Below, in pieces: positions 3,071-19,872 of a stretch of 25,907 nt of DNA. The notes beneath the pieces are model-generated. The model was not told the origin of the DNA. It was given only the letters and a program-made list of their open reading frames with translations, and searched no databases. The position numbers and the translations under genes are program-made. Each line of letters starts with the position of its first letter. Within the stretch, counting starts at the first letter, position 1. The stretch is from positions 1 to 25,907 of the IMG/VR virus record IMGVR_UViG_3300005563_000679; one strand, 5' to 3'. Source of the DNA: a virus.

Positions 3071-3558
3071 CCGCCGTCGACCGCAACTACCTGCTCAAGC
3101 TGCTATACGACGCCCGCCAGGTTCAGAACGGCCGCGCGAAGCTGCCCGCGGACAAGAGCACTGCCGCGCGCAGGCTGCAGGCCAAGACCCGCTCCTACAC
3201 GTTGTCGCTGGCCATTGACGCCATCAACGACGGCCTGCTAGAGCAGCAGCACGACGATGGCCAGCAGGACCTGTTCACCGCAGCGGCCGCCCCGGCTGAT
3301 GACGCGGCCCCGAGCGGCGCCAGCGCCTACATCGAGCCCGTCGACGCCGACACCTTCGTCGTATACAGCACCGACGCCGCCGGCAACCACGCCGCCGTCC
3401 TTCAGCGCTACGACGGCGCGGACATCCCCGTCGACGACAACAGCGCGGACGCGCTGCCGGCTGAGTACGTGGACTACGCCGAGGCCGAGGACGTCCGCCA
3501 GATCCGCGAGGAGATGGCCCTGGAGGCTGCCGGCGTCGAGCGCTGGGAGGACCTGTGA
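3067..3558 (+). CDS. Unrecognised early protein, 163 residues
   Basis: Starts at a GTG overlapping the upstream stop (GTGA). The first 60 residues are basic and helical (NYLLKLLYDARQVQNGRAKL, then RLQAKTRSYTLSLAIDAI). After an Ala/Asp-rich linker comes a short beta-rich segment (AYIEPVDADTFVVYSTDAAG, AAVLQRYDGADI) and an acidic C-terminus (ALPAEYVDYAEAEDVRQIRE). No known family was recognised. It sits in the coupled chain and shares the acidic bias of its left neighbour. Confidence 0.6.
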   Translation: MTAVDRNYLLKLLYDARQVQNGRAKLPADKSTAARRLQAKTRSYTLSLAIDAINDGLLEQQHDDGQQDLFTAAAAPADDAAPSGASAYIEPVDADTFVVYSTDAAGNHAAVLQRYDGADIPVDDNSADALPAEYVDYAEAEDVRQIREEMALEAAGVERWEDL

Positions 3559-3746
3559 GTGCCATCGAGACCGCCGCCGCGCTGGCGGCGGAGGACAAGT
3601 ACAAGACGTACGCCACGGTCGAGACGGCCGAGGGCTACGAGGCCTGGAACGCCGGCGACTACCACCGCGCGACGAAGCTGTGGCGCTCGGCCGCGCGCTG
3701 GTCGCAGTTCGCCGAGCAGGCCGCGGAAGGTGGTGCGGCCCAGTGA
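3555..3746 (+). CDS. Small helical protein, TPR-like hairpin
   Basis: 63 residues. The GTG start overlaps the previous stop by 4 bp and has a strong Shine-Dalgarno, GGGAGG, ending at 3550. The segment AEGYEAWNAGDYHRATKLWR then SAARWSQFAEQAA has the spacing of a single tetratricopeptide helix pair (A...G.Y..A...W). One repeat alone is usually an interaction hook rather than a full TPR domain. Function unknown. Confidence 0.6.
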   Translation: MSAIETAAALAAEDKYKTYATVETAEGYEAWNAGDYHRATKLWRSAARWSQFAEQAAEGGAAQ

Positions 3747-4159
3747 CCCCCGAACAGGCCACGGCCGTCCTCGTCCAGAACGGCATCGTCTCGACCGCCG
3801 AGGTACGCCAGGGCCCCAAGAGCATCGAGCAGCAGCAGCGTGACCAGGACCTGCTGGCATACCGCGTGCTCGGCGAGCTGATGGGGCGTGTACCGATCGG
3901 TATCCGAATCGGCGGCTGGAACATCGGCTCCGGCAGCATCGACGTCCACGTCAGGGGCCTTGGGCTCTCCGACCACGAGATCCGCGGCCGAGTGATGCAG
4001 CTGGCCGAGCAGTTCGACCTCGACTACGCCGAATACCCGCTGGGTGGCTCGCCGAGCCAGAACCGGGTCTCCGCCTGCGGCGACTACCAGGGCGTGTCGG
4101 TCAGGTTCTGGTACCTGGTCAGCCCGTGCTCATGCGAGGACTGCGGGGCTGCGCGATGA
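3743..4159 (+). CDS. Unrecognised early protein, 138 residues
   Basis: The GTG start overlaps the previous stop (GTGA). The N-terminal third is helical (PEQATAVLVQNGIVSTAEVR, then QQQRDQDLLAYRVLGELMG). It is followed by a compact alpha/beta region with several strands (IGIRIGGWNIGSGSIDVHV, VSVRFWYLV). The tail CSCEDCG is a cysteine cluster that could bind metal. No family was recognised. It is coupled to genes on both sides. Confidence 0.6.
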   Translation: MTPEQATAVLVQNGIVSTAEVRQGPKSIEQQQRDQDLLAYRVLGELMGRVPIGIRIGGWNIGSGSIDVHVRGLGLSDHEIRGRVMQLAEQFDLDYAEYPLGGSPSQNRVSACGDYQGVSVRFWYLVSPCSCEDCGAAR

Positions 4160-8841: not shown

Positions 8842-9255
8842 ATGAGTACCCCAAACAAGGTCCTGCTGCAGCAGACGCTGACCTATATCAAGCGGTACCC
8901 CGACACCTGGTACCAAGGGGACTGGTCTTTGCAGACCGACTGCGGCACGGCTCACTGCTTCGCAGGCTGGGCCGTCAAGCTCGGCGGCGTCACGCTGGAC
9001 GAGGACGACGAAGTCCTTCGCGCCAGCCTGCCCAGCCCGGACGAGCTCCAAAAGCACATCGACGACGACCCGGCCTCGCCCGGTTACGTCCACGTCTCGG
9101 TGGCCGCGCGACACCTGCTCGGGCTGACGCCGGAGCAGGCGGAGGAGCTGTTCAGCGGCGCCAACGCCGTGGAGGACCTGGAGCGCATCGTCGCTGAGCT
9201 GTGCGCAGACGCCAGCACTGGCAGCGACAGCGACGTGGCGAAGGCCGGCGGCTGA
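8842..9255 (+). CDS. Conserved actinophage family protein (CGTxxCFAGWA motif)
   Basis: 137 residues. The ATG at 8842 has Shine-Dalgarno GGAGA 7 bp upstream and begins MSTPNKVLLQQTLTYIKR. The core DTWYQGDWSLQTDCGTAHCF then AGWAVKLGG, followed later by AARHLLGLTPEQAEELFSG and a final LERIVAEL helix, is a layout I recognise from many actinobacterial phages and plasmids. I know no characterised member. The C-x4-C pair and invariant AGWA suggest a small folded domain rather than a disordered accessory. It overlaps the next gene by one base (TGATG). Confidence 0.72.
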   Translation: MSTPNKVLLQQTLTYIKRYPDTWYQGDWSLQTDCGTAHCFAGWAVKLGGVTLDEDDEVLRASLPSPDELQKHIDDDPASPGYVHVSVAARHLLGLTPEQAEELFSGANAVEDLERIVAELCADASTGSDSDVAKAGG

Positions 9256-9692
9256 TGGCGCTGCGCTTCGATTCCCCGATCGCCGAGCTCGGCTGCACCA
9301 CCGAAGCTCCGAAAGCGCTGCGCGCCGCCGGCATCGACACCATCGGCCAGCTGATCGCCCTCACCGAGGACAACGCCAAGCAGATCAAGGGCCTCGGCGA
9401 GTACCGCCTGGCCGACGTGAAGGCCGCGATGGCCAAGAACCGGCTGCGGTTCGCCACCGCCCCGCTGATCGCCCGGCGGTGCAACGACTGCCCGGTGTGT
9501 CCCGGGTGCGGCAACCCGCGCGCCATCGAGCCGAAGCAGGTCGTCGCCGACGTCGCCGGCCGGTTCAAGCACACCGGCGAGGAGGTCCTGCCGACCTGCG
9601 ACGACTGCGACGCCCACCACCGGTCCCTGTTCGCCGGGGCTGCCGGAAAGCAAGCGGTGAGGGGCCCGCGAGGAGGTGCTCATGCCGCGTGA
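9255..9692 (+). CDS. HhH protein resembling the RNA polymerase alpha-subunit C-terminal domain, plus zinc ribbon
   Basis: 145 residues. Residues about 6-62 follow the bacterial alpha-CTD closely: PIAELGCTTEAPKALRAAGI then DTIGQLIALTEDNAKQIKGL then GEYRLADVKAAM. The matching alpha pattern is P-hydrophobic-..L..T...CL..-I..IGDL...TE......LG..SL.EIK. The positions equivalent to E. coli R265, N268, K298 and S299, which contact UP-element DNA, appear as E, K, Y and R, so DNA contacts would differ. The second half has CNDCPVCPGC and CDDCDAHH, a probable zinc ribbon. It may be an RNA-polymerase or sigma-interacting factor; a generic HhH DNA-binding protein is the alternative. Confidence 0.65.
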   Translation: MALRFDSPIAELGCTTEAPKALRAAGIDTIGQLIALTEDNAKQIKGLGEYRLADVKAAMAKNRLRFATAPLIARRCNDCPVCPGCGNPRAIEPKQVVADVAGRFKHTGEEVLPTCDDCDAHHRSLFAGAAGKQAVRGPRGGAHAA

Positions 9693-10097: not shown

Positions 10098-10142
10098 CAC
10101 CGCCTTGAACATCAGCACACGTACGAAAGGGCGGTACCGGCA

Positions 10143-11129
10143 TTGGCCACGTTGAAGCACCAGGCACTCGGCAACTACGCCTGGATGCAGGTCATTCGCC
10201 GCTCTGACCTGCCCCAGCAGATCAAGGTGGTGGCCTTCATCCTCGGTATCAGCGCCGACGCCGACGGCTCCAACGCATCGTGCGGACAGAAGCGGCTCGG
10301 CGACGAGGCGATCTGCGATGAGCGGTATGCCCGCGACTCGGTCCAGGCGCTGGAGCTACTGGGCCTGATCGAGGTGACCCGCTACGGCCGGACCGCCACG
10401 GACGCGAACACCTACCAGCTGACCACACCCGGCGGGGACCTGCCGGGCATCCCGATGCGCCGTGACCCGAAGGGTGTGCCGCTCGGTTTGGACGGTGAAC
10501 CGCGGGTTGGGAAGCGTCCGAAACCGCCGGCGCTGCGCCCGCTGCTGGCGTCGCTTCAGGGCAGGCAGCTTCCGGAGCGGCCGATGCCGGTGGAACGTAC
10601 CGGCAACCCCGTGTCGGAACCTGACCCTGACGTCCCTGTGGATAACTCGGACGGTACCGGCAACCCGGTGCCGCTACAGCTTGTCGAGGATCCAGAACCT
10701 ACTGACGAGTACCGGCAACCCGGTGCCGCTACGGACCCTGTGGATAACCAGCCGTACCGGCAACCGGTTGCACGAGTACCGGCAACGGGTTGCACGAGTA
10801 CCGGCAACCCGGTGCCGCCTACCAATCTCTTCCTACTTCTTCCAACTAACTCACCTCAGGTGACCCAGTCACCTACCCGAGACGGTGACGCCTGTGGACG
10901 AAGCGAAGAAGTGGATGAAGAGTCCGAGCCGCCGCCGGCCGACGACGAACTCGACACCGCCCGCGCTGTCCTTGCCGCGATGCGACCGGCCGCCGCGACC
11001 GCTTGGCGCGTCGCCGGCCGCCGCGCACTCGAAGCCGACGGCGTCCCGCTCACCAAACGTGGCGTCGAGATCCGCGCCGCCCACCTCGCCACCAGACCCA
11101 TCGACAACGCCGCCGGCGGCGCAGCATGA
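10143..11129 (+). CDS. Winged-helix replication initiator candidate (origin inside the gene)
   Basis: 328 residues from a TTG start (AGGGCGG upstream). Residues about 22-97 read LPQQIKVVAFILGISADADG, ASCGQKRLGDEAICDERYAR, DSVQALELLGLIEVTRYGRT. This is the helix-turn-helix_36 / DnaD-like winged helix typical of phage and plasmid replication initiators: 'screen for a marker, then helix, then LGLIE wing'. A Pro-rich linker (about 100-240) encodes the iteron cluster, and a C-terminal helical domain (TARAVLAAMRPAAATAWRVA) follows. In lambda, the O initiator gene also contains the origin. No helicase gene lies next to it, so the helicase is presumably recruited from the host. A transcription regulator is the main alternative. 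Confidence 0.65.
   Translation: MATLKHQALGNYAWMQVIRRSDLPQQIKVVAFILGISADADGSNASCGQKRLGDEAICDERYARDSVQALELLGLIEVTRYGRTATDANTYQLTTPGGDLPGIPMRRDPKGVPLGLDGEPRVGKRPKPPALRPLLASLQGRQLPERPMPVERTGNPVSEPDPDVPVDNSDGTGNPVPLQLVEDPEPTDEYRQPGAATDPVDNQPYRQPVARVPATGCTSTGNPVPPTNLFLLLPTNSPQVTQSPTRDGDACGRSEEVDEESEPPPADDELDTARAVLAAMRPAAATAWRVAGRRALEADGVPLTKRGVEIRAAHLATRPIDNAAGGAA
10637..10645 (-). promoter_or_regulatory. DnaA box 1
   Basis: TTATCCACA on the - strand, a full match to the consensus TTATNCACA bound by host DnaA. It lies between iterons 1 and 2 inside the initiator gene. It is embedded in CCCTGTGGATAAC, which recurs at 10736-10748. Confidence 0.65.
10739..10747 (-). promoter_or_regulatory. DnaA box 2
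   Basis: A second perfect TTATCCACA on the - strand, 102 bp from the first, between iterons 3 and 4. Same orientation and same flanks (CCCTGTGGATAAC), so the box and its context are duplicated. Confidence 0.65.
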
Positions 11130-11298: not shown

Positions 11299-11516
11299 AG
11301 CCCATGACCGCCCGCCTGACCTGCCACGCCGACGACTGCGTCAACACCCGCCGCCGCGACCAGCTCATGTGCCGCGCCTGCTGGAACCAGGTCCCGCAAG
11401 ACATCCAGGAGGCCGTCTACGCCGCCTACGACCCGTCCGCCGGCTACCGCCAAAGCCCCGAGTGGGCCGCGGCCGCGCAGCGCGCCATCGCCTCCCTACG
11501 ACCGGAGCAGACCTGA
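11295..11516 (+). CDS. Small four-Cys zinc-finger phage protein
   Basis: 73 residues. Cysteines at 10, 15, 26 and 29 (TCHADDC, LMCRACW) form a treble-clef-like site. It is followed by NQVPQDIQEAVYAAYDP and a final helix SPEWAAAAQRAIASL. The pattern 'LMCRxxWxxVPxxLQxxVxxAY' then 'SPEY..A...AI' is a family I recognise from many phages, function unknown. An in-frame ATG at 11304 would remove only three residues. It overlaps the next gene by one base (TGATG). Confidence 0.65.
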   Translation: MKPMTARLTCHADDCVNTRRRDQLMCRACWNQVPQDIQEAVYAAYDPSAGYRQSPEWAAAAQRAIASLRPEQT

Positions 11517-12949
11517 TGCCCACCAACGACCCCATCACCACCGGCCGGCTCATCGCCTCCATCCGCGAAGGCATCGCCACGCAGCCAGCGCTGACCGCCC
11601 AGGCCCGTCCGGTCGCCGACAGTTTCACCACGCTCATCCACTATCGGCTGCCGAAGGTCACAGCCGCCGACGGCGACCTGATGATCCACATCGCCGCCTT
11701 CCTCGCCGATGTCATGACGGCGCTGACCGCGGCAGGCGACGCCCCCGTCGACGCGATTACGACCGCAACCAGCGCCATCGCCATCGCCGGCCTCAAGCTC
11801 CACGACAGTGGCGAAACCCCGACCGCCGACGACGACGCCGAGACCGCCGACGCCGCGGCGAGGCTGCGCGCCTGGTTCCAGGCAGAGGGCCCGCTGGTGA
11901 TGGACGAGGAAGACCTCGACGACGTGCAGAAGGTGCTCGCCGCGTACGAACGCGGAAGGACCGCGCAACCGGCCAACGGCGACCCGTGCGCGGTCTGCTA
12001 CTGCCGGGGCTGCCCGCAGTGCGTCAGCCTGACGCCCCCCAGCGAGGTGTGCTTCTGTCGCAAGGCCATGCGGCCCGAGCCTGCGAAGGCGGACGAGCAC
12101 CAGCCGCCCGAGACGCCGACCGTCCCCGGACCGCAAAGCGAGCGCAAGATCAGCGATGCTGCGATCCGCGCATACGCCGCCGTGCTCATCCAGGACTACG
12201 CGGCCGGACTCGACTACCTCGACCTCGCCGAGCACATGTTCGTCGATACCAGCATCGGCGGCGTCCTGCTCGCCGACCTCGACGGGCCCGAGATCGATGA
12301 CGTGCAGCGACGCATTCTCAGCGCTGCACACACCGCCGCGATTGCCTCTTCGTGGCCGCACAGCCGACAGGACGCCCCCAACCGTGCCGCCGTTGAGGCG
12401 GCCGAGACAACGGGCGGCGAGCAGGCGCAGGGGGCGGCGGGACGCGTGGGGGCGTTCCTGGACGACTGGCCCCACGGCGACGTCGTGTGGTTCGCCAACG
12501 CCGAGGACGTCGCACCGCTGACAATCGCCGACCTCCGCACCGTCCTGGCCGAACTCGAGCGGCTGGCGCCCGTGGAACACGAGCTCGTGGCGCGAAAGCG
12601 CGAAGACCGCAACGTCGACCGCACGCTCGCGCTGCTGCTGACGCGGCTCGGCGGCGACGTCGAGTTCAGCCGCGTCGAGATGGAGGCCGCGCCGCGGCAC
12701 GGCGAGTTCGTAACCATGCAGACGGTGACCGGCGGGATGCGGCTTGCGTTCCAGGCGGCCGCTGAGGCCCGTGCCGAGCTGGTCACCTGGTGCCGCATCA
12801 TGTGCGTCGGCCCGGCCTGTGCCAAGCCGTGCGACGACTGCCGACGCGACAGCGCACGGAACGCCAAGATGCCCAGCGAGATCCGCGCGTCCGTCACCGC
12901 CGCCCGGGCAGAGTTCGGGCTGCCGCCAGAGACAGGAAACAAGTCGTGA
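11516..12949 (+). CDS. Unrecognised 477-residue protein with Cys clusters
   Basis: ATG start sharing a base with the previous stop. Layout: an N-terminal helical domain (about 1-115, with VADSFTTLIHYRLP and FLADVMTALTAAGD); an acidic segment; a Cys cluster around 160-185 (CAVCYCRGCPQCV, CFCRK); a helical middle (IRAYAAVLIQDYAAGLDYLD); a segment LDDWPHGDVVWFANAEDVAP that resembles actinophage-specific insertions; and a C-terminal cluster CVGPACAKPCDDCRR. Two metal-binding clusters are likely. It may be a fusion of several small early modules. Start choice and boundaries are firm because both ends overlap neighbours. Confidence 0.65.
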   Translation: MPTNDPITTGRLIASIREGIATQPALTAQARPVADSFTTLIHYRLPKVTAADGDLMIHIAAFLADVMTALTAAGDAPVDAITTATSAIAIAGLKLHDSGETPTADDDAETADAAARLRAWFQAEGPLVMDEEDLDDVQKVLAAYERGRTAQPANGDPCAVCYCRGCPQCVSLTPPSEVCFCRKAMRPEPAKADEHQPPETPTVPGPQSERKISDAAIRAYAAVLIQDYAAGLDYLDLAEHMFVDTSIGGVLLADLDGPEIDDVQRRILSAAHTAAIASSWPHSRQDAPNRAAVEAAETTGGEQAQGAAGRVGAFLDDWPHGDVVWFANAEDVAPLTIADLRTVLAELERLAPVEHELVARKREDRNVDRTLALLLTRLGGDVEFSRVEMEAAPRHGEFVTMQTVTGGMRLAFQAAAEARAELVTWCRIMCVGPACAKPCDDCRRDSARNAKMPSEIRASVTAARAEFGLPPETGNKS

Positions 12950-19005: not shown

Positions 19006-19872
19006 ATGGCCCACCAACTGTGCGAAGCCACCCACCGCGACAAGCCGCCCACCGCACTCGGAGGCCTGCGCCTGTGCGGCGGCCACAACGCCGCGCTCGT
19101 CGACGCACTCACTGGCCCGTCGGCCGCCGCTGACCCGACCGTCGCCACTGCCTGGGGCTACCCCATCGGCCGGCGCGTCATCATCTGCGACGGCCAGCAG
19201 CGCGCCACCGAGCTGCGCACCGCCGCCCGCCGCGCCTGGATCAGGCGCCTGCAAACCATCGACAGCCAGCACGAGATGCAGGACGCGCTCTACACCATCC
19301 CCGGGCCGGTCGTGTGCGGCGACGGCACGATCTGGCTCGAGCCCGGCCGCTACCGCCCCGGAGGCCTCGCCCGCCTCTACAGCGAACTCGCCGACCGCCT
19401 GGCCGGTATCACCACCGGCGAGAAGATCCGGGGCGGCAACGCCGTCGACGTCCCCGACCCGGCCCCGGACCCCGTCGCCGAGCTCCGCTCCCAAATCCGC
19501 CACGACCTCGCACACTGGGTCACCGAGCACATCGAACACGGCGAGGCGATCGCGCCCGAACGCGACGCCCACCCCGCCATCCTTACCGCATGGCTCGCCG
19601 TCCGGCTCGACTGGGCCGCCGCACAACCCTGGGCAGGAAAGTACGCCGACGTCCTCGGCGAGCTCCTGCGCTCCAGCCGGCGCCTGATCGACCTGCCCCA
19701 CGCGGCCCGCGTACCGGCAGGGATCTGCCCTGAGCACGGGTGCGGCGGCGCTCTATGGTCTACCGTCCATCTGCCGCCCCGGCTGCCCGTCATCCGCTGC
19801 GAGGCCTGCGGCAAGGAGTGGGACAGCACCCAGTGGATCCCGCTGCGGGACCGGCTTAAGCAGCCCAGCTGA
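19006..19872 (+). CDS. Actinophage protein with N- and C-terminal zinc-binding motifs
   Basis: 288 residues, ATG start with GGGG upstream. The N-terminus (HQLCEATHRD...LRLCGGHN) resembles a degenerate C...C..H finger often found at the start of this phage family. A helical middle follows (ATELRTAARRAWIRRLQTID, LYSELADRLAGI, HPAILTAWLAVRLDWAA). The C-terminus is a clear zinc ribbon, CPEHGCGGALW...IRCEACGKEW then DSTQWIPLRDRL, typical of proteins encoded just before late genes in Streptomyces phages. No activity is known to me. It is the last gene before the tRNA-like segment. Confidence 0.65.
   Translation: MAHQLCEATHRDKPPTALGGLRLCGGHNAALVDALTGPSAAADPTVATAWGYPIGRRVIICDGQQRATELRTAARRAWIRRLQTIDSQHEMQDALYTIPGPVVCGDGTIWLEPGRYRPGGLARLYSELADRLAGITTGEKIRGGNAVDVPDPAPDPVAELRSQIRHDLAHWVTEHIEHGEAIAPERDAHPAILTAWLAVRLDWAAAQPWAGKYADVLGELLRSSRRLIDLPHAARVPAGICPEHGCGGALWSTVHLPPRLPVIRCEACGKEWDSTQWIPLRDRLKQPS

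Follow-up and report, generated by a model that had tools for sequence, protein, structure and literature searches.

Where does replication of this phage begin, and do the repeats inside one of its genes serve the DNA or the protein? The locus that raises the question is the initiator gene at positions 10143 to 11129, plus strand, of the virus record IMGVR_UViG_3300005563_000679. The whole 25,907 bp of this record, referred to here as the window, were analysed; they have an AT content of 30% and include a large terminase gene. The initiator gene encodes 328 aa from a TTG start, given as in the open reading frame list, the true start being unproven. The segment from 10597 to 10863 within this gene is very probably the origin of replication of the phage, bound by its own initiator in the manner of lambda gene O. 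A preliminary description of the sequence had placed the origin there, and sequence comparison with relatives supports this. The repeats, dyads, DnaA boxes and tract described below are seen directly in the DNA, and the winged helix of the protein is a model.

A longer record, IMGVR_UViG_3300026078_000033 (58,712 bp), holds the entire window with 4 base differences, none of them in the array. Since 126 bp of the window are common to both of its ends, the phage map closes at 58,575 bp. On this whole map there are six exact copies of the iteron GTACCGGCAAC and two of TTATNCACA, all inside 10597-10808. The iterons start at 10597, 10654, 10709, 10754, 10776 and 10798, with spacings of 57, 55, 45, 22 and 22 bp, and each is the left arm of a 24 bp imperfect dyad in which 7, 9, 9, 7, 6 and 6 of the 12 positions pair, against a background mean of 3.5. 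Iteron 1 (10597-10620, plus strand, as are all six) has a weak right arm, with 7/12 pairs; iterons 2 (10654-10677) and 3 (10709-10732), both GTACCGGCAAC/GTAGCGGCACC with 9/12 pairs, are the best dyads of the window. Iteron 4 (10754-10775) opens a trio spaced exactly 22 bp that is completed by iterons 5 (10776-10797) and 6 (10798-10822), both exact repeat copies. The DnaA box TTATCCACA occurs exactly twice on the minus strand, at 10637-10645 and 10739-10747, these being the two TTATNCACA of the map, and both boxes are embedded in one identical 13 nt sequence, CCCTGTGGATAAC. The six iterons, the two perfect DnaA boxes and the 22 bp spacing of the last three copies had all been reported in the preliminary description and are exact.

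Such clustering is found nowhere else on the map. When exact 11-mers are counted in 300 bp windows, the array has 6 copies and any other place has 3 or fewer. Synonymous codon reshuffles that preserve the protein (10,000) gave at most 4 iteron copies against the 6 observed. Codon resampling never produced two DnaA boxes (5,000 trials), and shuffling codons within the gene did so in 46 of 5,000 trials. The array strand folds more stably than 200 shuffles (z -4.9), as is expected of dyads.

The protein has the predicted shape of an initiator with the array in its linker, as had been proposed. An AlphaFold2 model gives a winged-helix DNA-binding domain at residues 9-96 (10167-10430, plus strand; mean predicted local distance difference test score, pLDDT, 87.4), which Foldseek and VIA match to winged-helix proteins. 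Linker residues 141-266, which contain the array and the tract behind it, have no predicted secondary structure. They are followed by predicted C-terminal helices, residues 267-317 (10941-11093, plus strand), modelled with low confidence at 267-298 and 305-317 and a candidate partner-binding part. In a single comparison, the C-terminus has a 16-residue BLASTP match to that of locus L050 (E 7e-4); the loci compared are given here as L numbers. Third-position GC drops from 0.90 in the winged helix to 0.62 over the array and 0.52 over the AT-richer tract, with 0.89 in 15 other genes.

The only PHROG match of the window initiator is phrog_26991, of unknown function (residues 16-102, E 9.4e-5). Of ten relatives scanned, nine hit replication-initiation PHROGs at E<=1e-3 and L029 does so more weakly; the best match of a relative to an O-like replication-initiation PHROG is that of L050 (8.9e-8). 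The Pfam O family has no match to the window protein at E<=1. The top Foldseek hits, 4pql, 5kbj and 4pt7, are named as initiator, Rep-DNA complex or DNA-binding protein, and we take them to be RepA_N domains. The VIA Z for 4pql is 6.7, inside the crowd of generic winged helices, and family assignment by fold search with Foldseek and VIA was rejected as the winged helix is too generic. A sequence search of solved structures was also set aside, its best hit (E 0.0083) being an unconvincing amidase entry.

Relatives were found through the winged helix in IMG/VR and GTDB contigs and bacterial genomes. Searches by tblastn against phages, using the proteins of the window, L012 and L030, and against plasmids, using that of the window, returned no relatives. 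The set of 39 loci excludes L011, L041, L069 and L078, duplicates or near-duplicates of L012, L075, L068 and L045, as well as three loci from this same phage (L008, L009 and L071) and refetched contig copies. The Streptomyces-group loci are closely related and do not count as independent. For the exact k-mer cluster test, 38 loci were used, L049 being cut at a contig end. In 36 of these the region 300-700 nt past the start codon beats all control windows for exact 10-mers, with ties in L048 and L050; for exact 9-mers, 31 are above controls and 7 tie. The repeats themselves differ. There are nine distinct repeat sequences among the relatives' loci, some of them mutually similar, and at the same place are found CGGACAGCGTCC, CGGAACCCGTT, CCGGAAGGCGT, GATTCACCGCT, TTCACCGGACA, ACCTGCGGGGT and TTCAGGGGCCA, among others, with GTCTRKGGMTCAY in L028. 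The nearest relative, L050 of Catenulispora, has 40% identity over 104 columns; at 2819-2851, in its initiator gene, three perfect DnaA boxes stand in tandem at 12 bp steps. In L114, a very distant relative with an end branch of 3.48 on the tree, five GCAGGAGTGC repeats at 22 or 33 bp lie in the gene (3111-4082), where controls have 4 or fewer.

Behind the array of the window is a G-poor, AT-richer tract (CTACCAATCTCTTCC...; 10818-10863, plus strand), a candidate unwinding element. The 40 nt at 10824 are 57.5% AT against the 30% of the window, which bears out the earlier mention of an AT-richer tract, and richer 40-mers make up 0.07% of the genome. The tract has 8 G per 60 nt scored, as low as 0.13% of the 60 nt windows of the record. 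With the last-iteron positions placed by hand, a G-poor tract lies 3' of the last iteron in most of 19 loci, L016 and L047 being without depletion. The motif ACCAACCAC has 10 copies in the tracts of 9 of the 19 loci and none in the remaining 206 kb, on both strands. In the Streptomyces group (L047, L016, L012) a small palindrome like CCTACCTCCGGTAGG lies behind the last iteron, replacing ACCAACCAC. AT-richness alone was rejected as an origin mark, the AT maximum of the region falling in the gene for 6 of 24 loci; in L028 the regional AT maximum is in the array, behind the stop. The pattern ACCA-N9-ACCAAC was discarded after a single occurrence.

Perfect TTRTCCACA sequences are concentrated in the same region, with 19 in 36,691 nt of origin region and 2 in 385,583 nt outside, an enrichment of about 100-fold. 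The 19 boxes are in 13 of the 39 loci, 16 on the minus strand and 3 on the plus strand. Where positions were compared (the window, L029, L030 and L032) the boxes lie in gaps between repeats, and one of the two in L063 is behind its array. The arrays share a layout as well. Scanning of both strands with half-site patterns, chosen by eye after the repeats were seen, finds three plus/minus iteron pairs and then single plus copies in L028, L029, L030, L033 and L031; the arrangement is partial in L032, L059 and L063, and the window has two exact pairs. Three or four phased single iterons follow the three pairs in five lineages, and single copies mostly follow one another at 21-24 or 32-33 bp, which corresponds to roughly two or three turns of the helix.

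The relatives also bear on whether the initiator binds these iterons. Loci with similar recognition helices tend to have similar iterons (21 loci, r 0.49), also once the rest of the domain is accounted for (partial r 0.32, permutation p 2e-4), with iteron consensus strings set by eye and kinship removed in part only. When 92 ten-column blocks are ranked by partial correlation with iteron sequence, the top six are at the wing (0.44-0.36) and the seventh is the start of the recognition helix (0.35). Helices with GxSTVR are paired with CGCTC iterons in L029, L055, L032, L059 and L063, which are kin. These sequence correlations support direct recognition of the iterons by the initiator.

How might such an origin be opened? 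From its anatomy, initiator dimers would bind the palindromic iterons, with more initiator on the three phased copies, and host DnaA would occupy the boxes between them. Initiator and DnaA together would bend the DNA and melt the AT-richer tract, and host DnaA, rather than a phage loader, would recruit the host DnaB helicase, with the host replisome completing replication. A mixed initiator and DnaA origin had been suggested for this phage, and the concentration of DnaA boxes in the relatives lends support to it. Profiles for DnaB (DnaB_C), IstB/DnaC and PolA had no match in ten records, including the near-complete record of this phage, while control genomes were matched. Helicase loading through host DnaA is therefore plausible, and we hold it slightly more likely than not.

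Its strongest competitor is strict lambda O/P logic, in which the phage initiator alone opens the origin together with a phage loader of unrecognised sequence, and the DnaA boxes only modulate. Lambda works in this way according to a passage in PMC5043065, and there are unannotated genes downstream of the initiator, of which the one scanned (11516-12946) has no PHROG or Pfam family match. A P-like loader of unrecognised sequence may be present; nine of the ten records scanned for helicases and loaders are possibly fragments, and 26 of the 39 loci have no perfect DnaA box. The enrichment of DnaA boxes in the region and the lack of any DnaB or IstB/DnaC match in the ten records tell against this alternative, which is unlikely while still a serious contender to loading through host DnaA.

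It could also be that the gene encodes a transcription regulator and that the array is an autoregulatory operator cluster, with no origin. The winged-helix fold is generic, and dyads are typical of operators. In addition, the 9-mer iteron core GTACCGGCA has 8 copies on the 58.6 kb map, comprising the six iterons, one at 19711 and one at 10134-10142, plus strand, which directly abuts the listed start codon and is a candidate autoregulatory half-site. However, the copies in the array are about 320-660 nt past the start codon, DnaA boxes are enriched there about 100-fold, a G-poor tract lies behind the array in most of the 19 loci, and relatives match replication-initiation PHROGs. An operator cluster is accordingly an improbable explanation of the array.

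The reading frames bear on whether the repeats serve the peptide. In the open reading frame 10143-11129, the six iterons are in frames 1, 1, 2, 2, 0 and 1 and encode TGNPV, TGNPV, YRQP, YRQP, VPATG and TGNPV. The preliminary description was correct on this point, although reading in several frames does not set this phage apart, because the four iterons of lambda, by their annotated coordinates, are in frames 0, 2, 2 and 1 of gene O. Among the relatives, 21 of 24 loci read the best 11-mer in at least two frames; 7 of them use all three, one of which (L043) is counted through a stray distant copy.

In five loci (L028, L060, L063, L064 and L066) the gene is 110-143 codons and the initiator frame stops at or in the array, the limits of which were set by hand; in L066 the first iteron copy is still within the frame. 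The repeats and the tract behind them are kept in all five. There is a stop in each of the three frames inside the array in L028, L060 and L066. The open frames across the L063 and L064 arrays have a third-position GC of 0.58-0.60 against 0.88 (L063) and 0.79 (L064) in the initiators, so translation through these arrays is unlikely. Frame 1 of L064 has an open stretch of 127 codons, 305-686 nt past the initiator start, that overlaps the initiator's last part and spans the array; it may be a shifted continuation of the initiator gene. On a rough tree of 121 columns, with unsettled bootstrap, at least two changes are required for the frame to end at the array, one of them at L063. A weak 22-residue match (E 0.008, one comparison) could point to a split-off C-terminal domain past the array of L028, and was given no weight.

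Codon use points the same way. Over all pairs of 13 Streptomyces-type loci, at sites where the amino acid is identical, the same codon is used at 1757/1873 (93.8%) in the iterons, 4341/6275 (69.2%) in the N-terminal domain and 4796/6094 (78.7%) elsewhere. Together, the arrays of the relatives, the short-gene loci and the codon identity suggest that the origin DNA is conserved above the linker peptide, and the peptide would be largely a tolerated translation of origin DNA. This is in keeping with the earlier claim that selection has acted on the DNA, as relatives keep the approximate place of the array with other repeats and other peptides. The reverse case, a conserved peptide with the repeats lost, was not seen; the array is kept, its sequence changes, and some frames end there.

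Phage proteins often have repetitive linkers, and 34 of the 39 loci, as labelled and not each checked, have the array in the initiator's open frame, so the repeats could be seen as a selected, flexible linker with the DNA repetition as its by-product. That is hardly credible given repeats read in more than one frame, their loss in protein-preserving reshuffles, three loci with no frame open across the array, and the excess of synonymous conservation in the iterons. Most improbable too is a partition (centromere-like) site or a loading site for an FtsK-like translocase, for which the phage has an FtsK-like gene and repeats are known, from a passage in PMC3583192, to mark the transfer (clt) sites of Streptomyces plasmids, as it leaves the DnaA boxes unexplained and, in ten records, the FtsK profile is found in 2 and ParA-like AAA_31 in 0, against a top repeat cluster at this place in 10 by exact 10-mers.

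Several results weigh against an origin inside the initiator gene of this phage. The preliminary description had proposed an inflection of GC skew at 10.6-10.9 kb as a check, and there is none at 10.6 kb on the 58.6 kb map. The window protein belongs to no named initiator family, with a best Pfam E of 0.023 and no NCBIfam match at 0.01. Its iteron codons score 0.475 against 0.480 in the rest of the gene and are not rarer, and ACCAACCAC is absent from its tract, where CTACCA is present. If one mismatch is allowed in the 10-mers, the window region has 7 copies and the best of 25 control windows has 8, and the region is above controls in only 17 of 29 loci, the window not being one of the 17; this test was dropped as a non-discriminating origin marker and exact 9- and 10-mers were used instead. 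The nearest relative, L050, has no detectable iteron array, as reflected in its tie in the exact 10-mer test, despite its three DnaA boxes. Through the array, two other frames are open in L063 and one in L064. Finally, in the 21 loci, iteron similarity tracks the recognition helix less closely than it does the remainder of the domain (for the latter r 0.61, partial 0.50), so kinship explains part of the correlation.

The wider proposal, which we regard as about evenly balanced, is that actinobacterial temperate phages share a modular class of origin. Such an origin would start about 320-460 nt past the start codon. First would come three pairs of initiator sites, the gaps holding host DnaA boxes, then single sites in helical phase, three or four in number, and last a G-poor, ACCAACCAC-type tract. 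The iteron would change with the wing and recognition helix by lineage, the frame would on more than one occasion have been carried through the origin or ended there, and the phages, having no loader of their own, would open it with host DnaA. The open-licence literature searched contained no account of this phage family or of its layout.

Known systems share parts of this arrangement. In lambda, as set out in a passage of PMC6022878, the origin in gene O has four 18 bp hyphenated dyads and a 39 bp AT-rich region. As in the window, the dyad iterons lie midway along the initiator gene and the AT-rich tract is on their right. The origin of P22 is likewise annotated inside its gene 18. Unlike the window, lambda has four annotated iterons and gene P follows, and P22 has the DnaB-like gene 12; the lambda and P22 stretches compared have no perfect DnaA box. 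The window differs from both in its six copies, two spacing classes, DnaA boxes between iterons, iteron sequence and lack of a recognised loader. What is new beyond lambda is the evidence from relatives on arrays, frame ends and DnaA boxes, the multi-frame reading being already known.

The origin of pSK41 is central in rep and encodes part of the linker of its RepA_N initiator, as a passage of PMC5703833 describes, and in this is like the window; in contrast to RepA_N initiators, neither the window protein nor any of ten relatives matches Pfam RepA_N at E<=1. In the lactococcal P335 phages, according to PMC8965321, TP901-1 ORF13 and Tuc2009 Rep2009 bind direct repeats in their own genes that are the origin, and some P335 phages have a DnaC-like loader; the likeness to the window is by description only. 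The P1 and RK2 plasmids resemble the window in their phased direct iterons, AT-rich region and initiator acting with DnaA (in a passage of PMC5043065), and the window differs from them in having dyads and an array within the gene. For mycobacterial extrachromosomal prophages, the authors of PMC7157519 considered a lambda-like position likely, with the origin either within repA or upstream of it.

The phage also has integrase and endolysin genes on IMGVR_UViG_3300026078_000033. Its 70% GC, with relatives in Streptomyces, Peterkaempfera and Catenulispora, suggests an actinobacterial host. Two genes upstream of the initiator, at 9201-9692 of the window, a small protein has a domain like the C-terminal domain of RNA polymerase alpha (PF03118, E 3e-8). 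A CutA1 divalent-ion-tolerance gene (PF03091, E 2e-31) is at 14623-14946 of L025, about 56205-56531 of the map, and a 721 aa FtsK/SpoIIIE-like protein (phrog_1358, E 4e-19) is encoded at 519-2684 of L026, 48470-50635 of the map, both on the minus strand.

These loci are natural replicates. Some phages have the origin DNA inside the initiator frame, whereas in others it sits where the frame ends or behind that point, and this makes the pressure that an origin places on a protein sequence measurable. The matched pairs of initiator and iteron are offered for deciphering a code of DNA recognition, and the origins themselves are candidate small replicons for high-GC actinobacteria. For the phages, the findings suggest a route to helicase loading through host DnaA, replacing a P- or DnaC-like loader.
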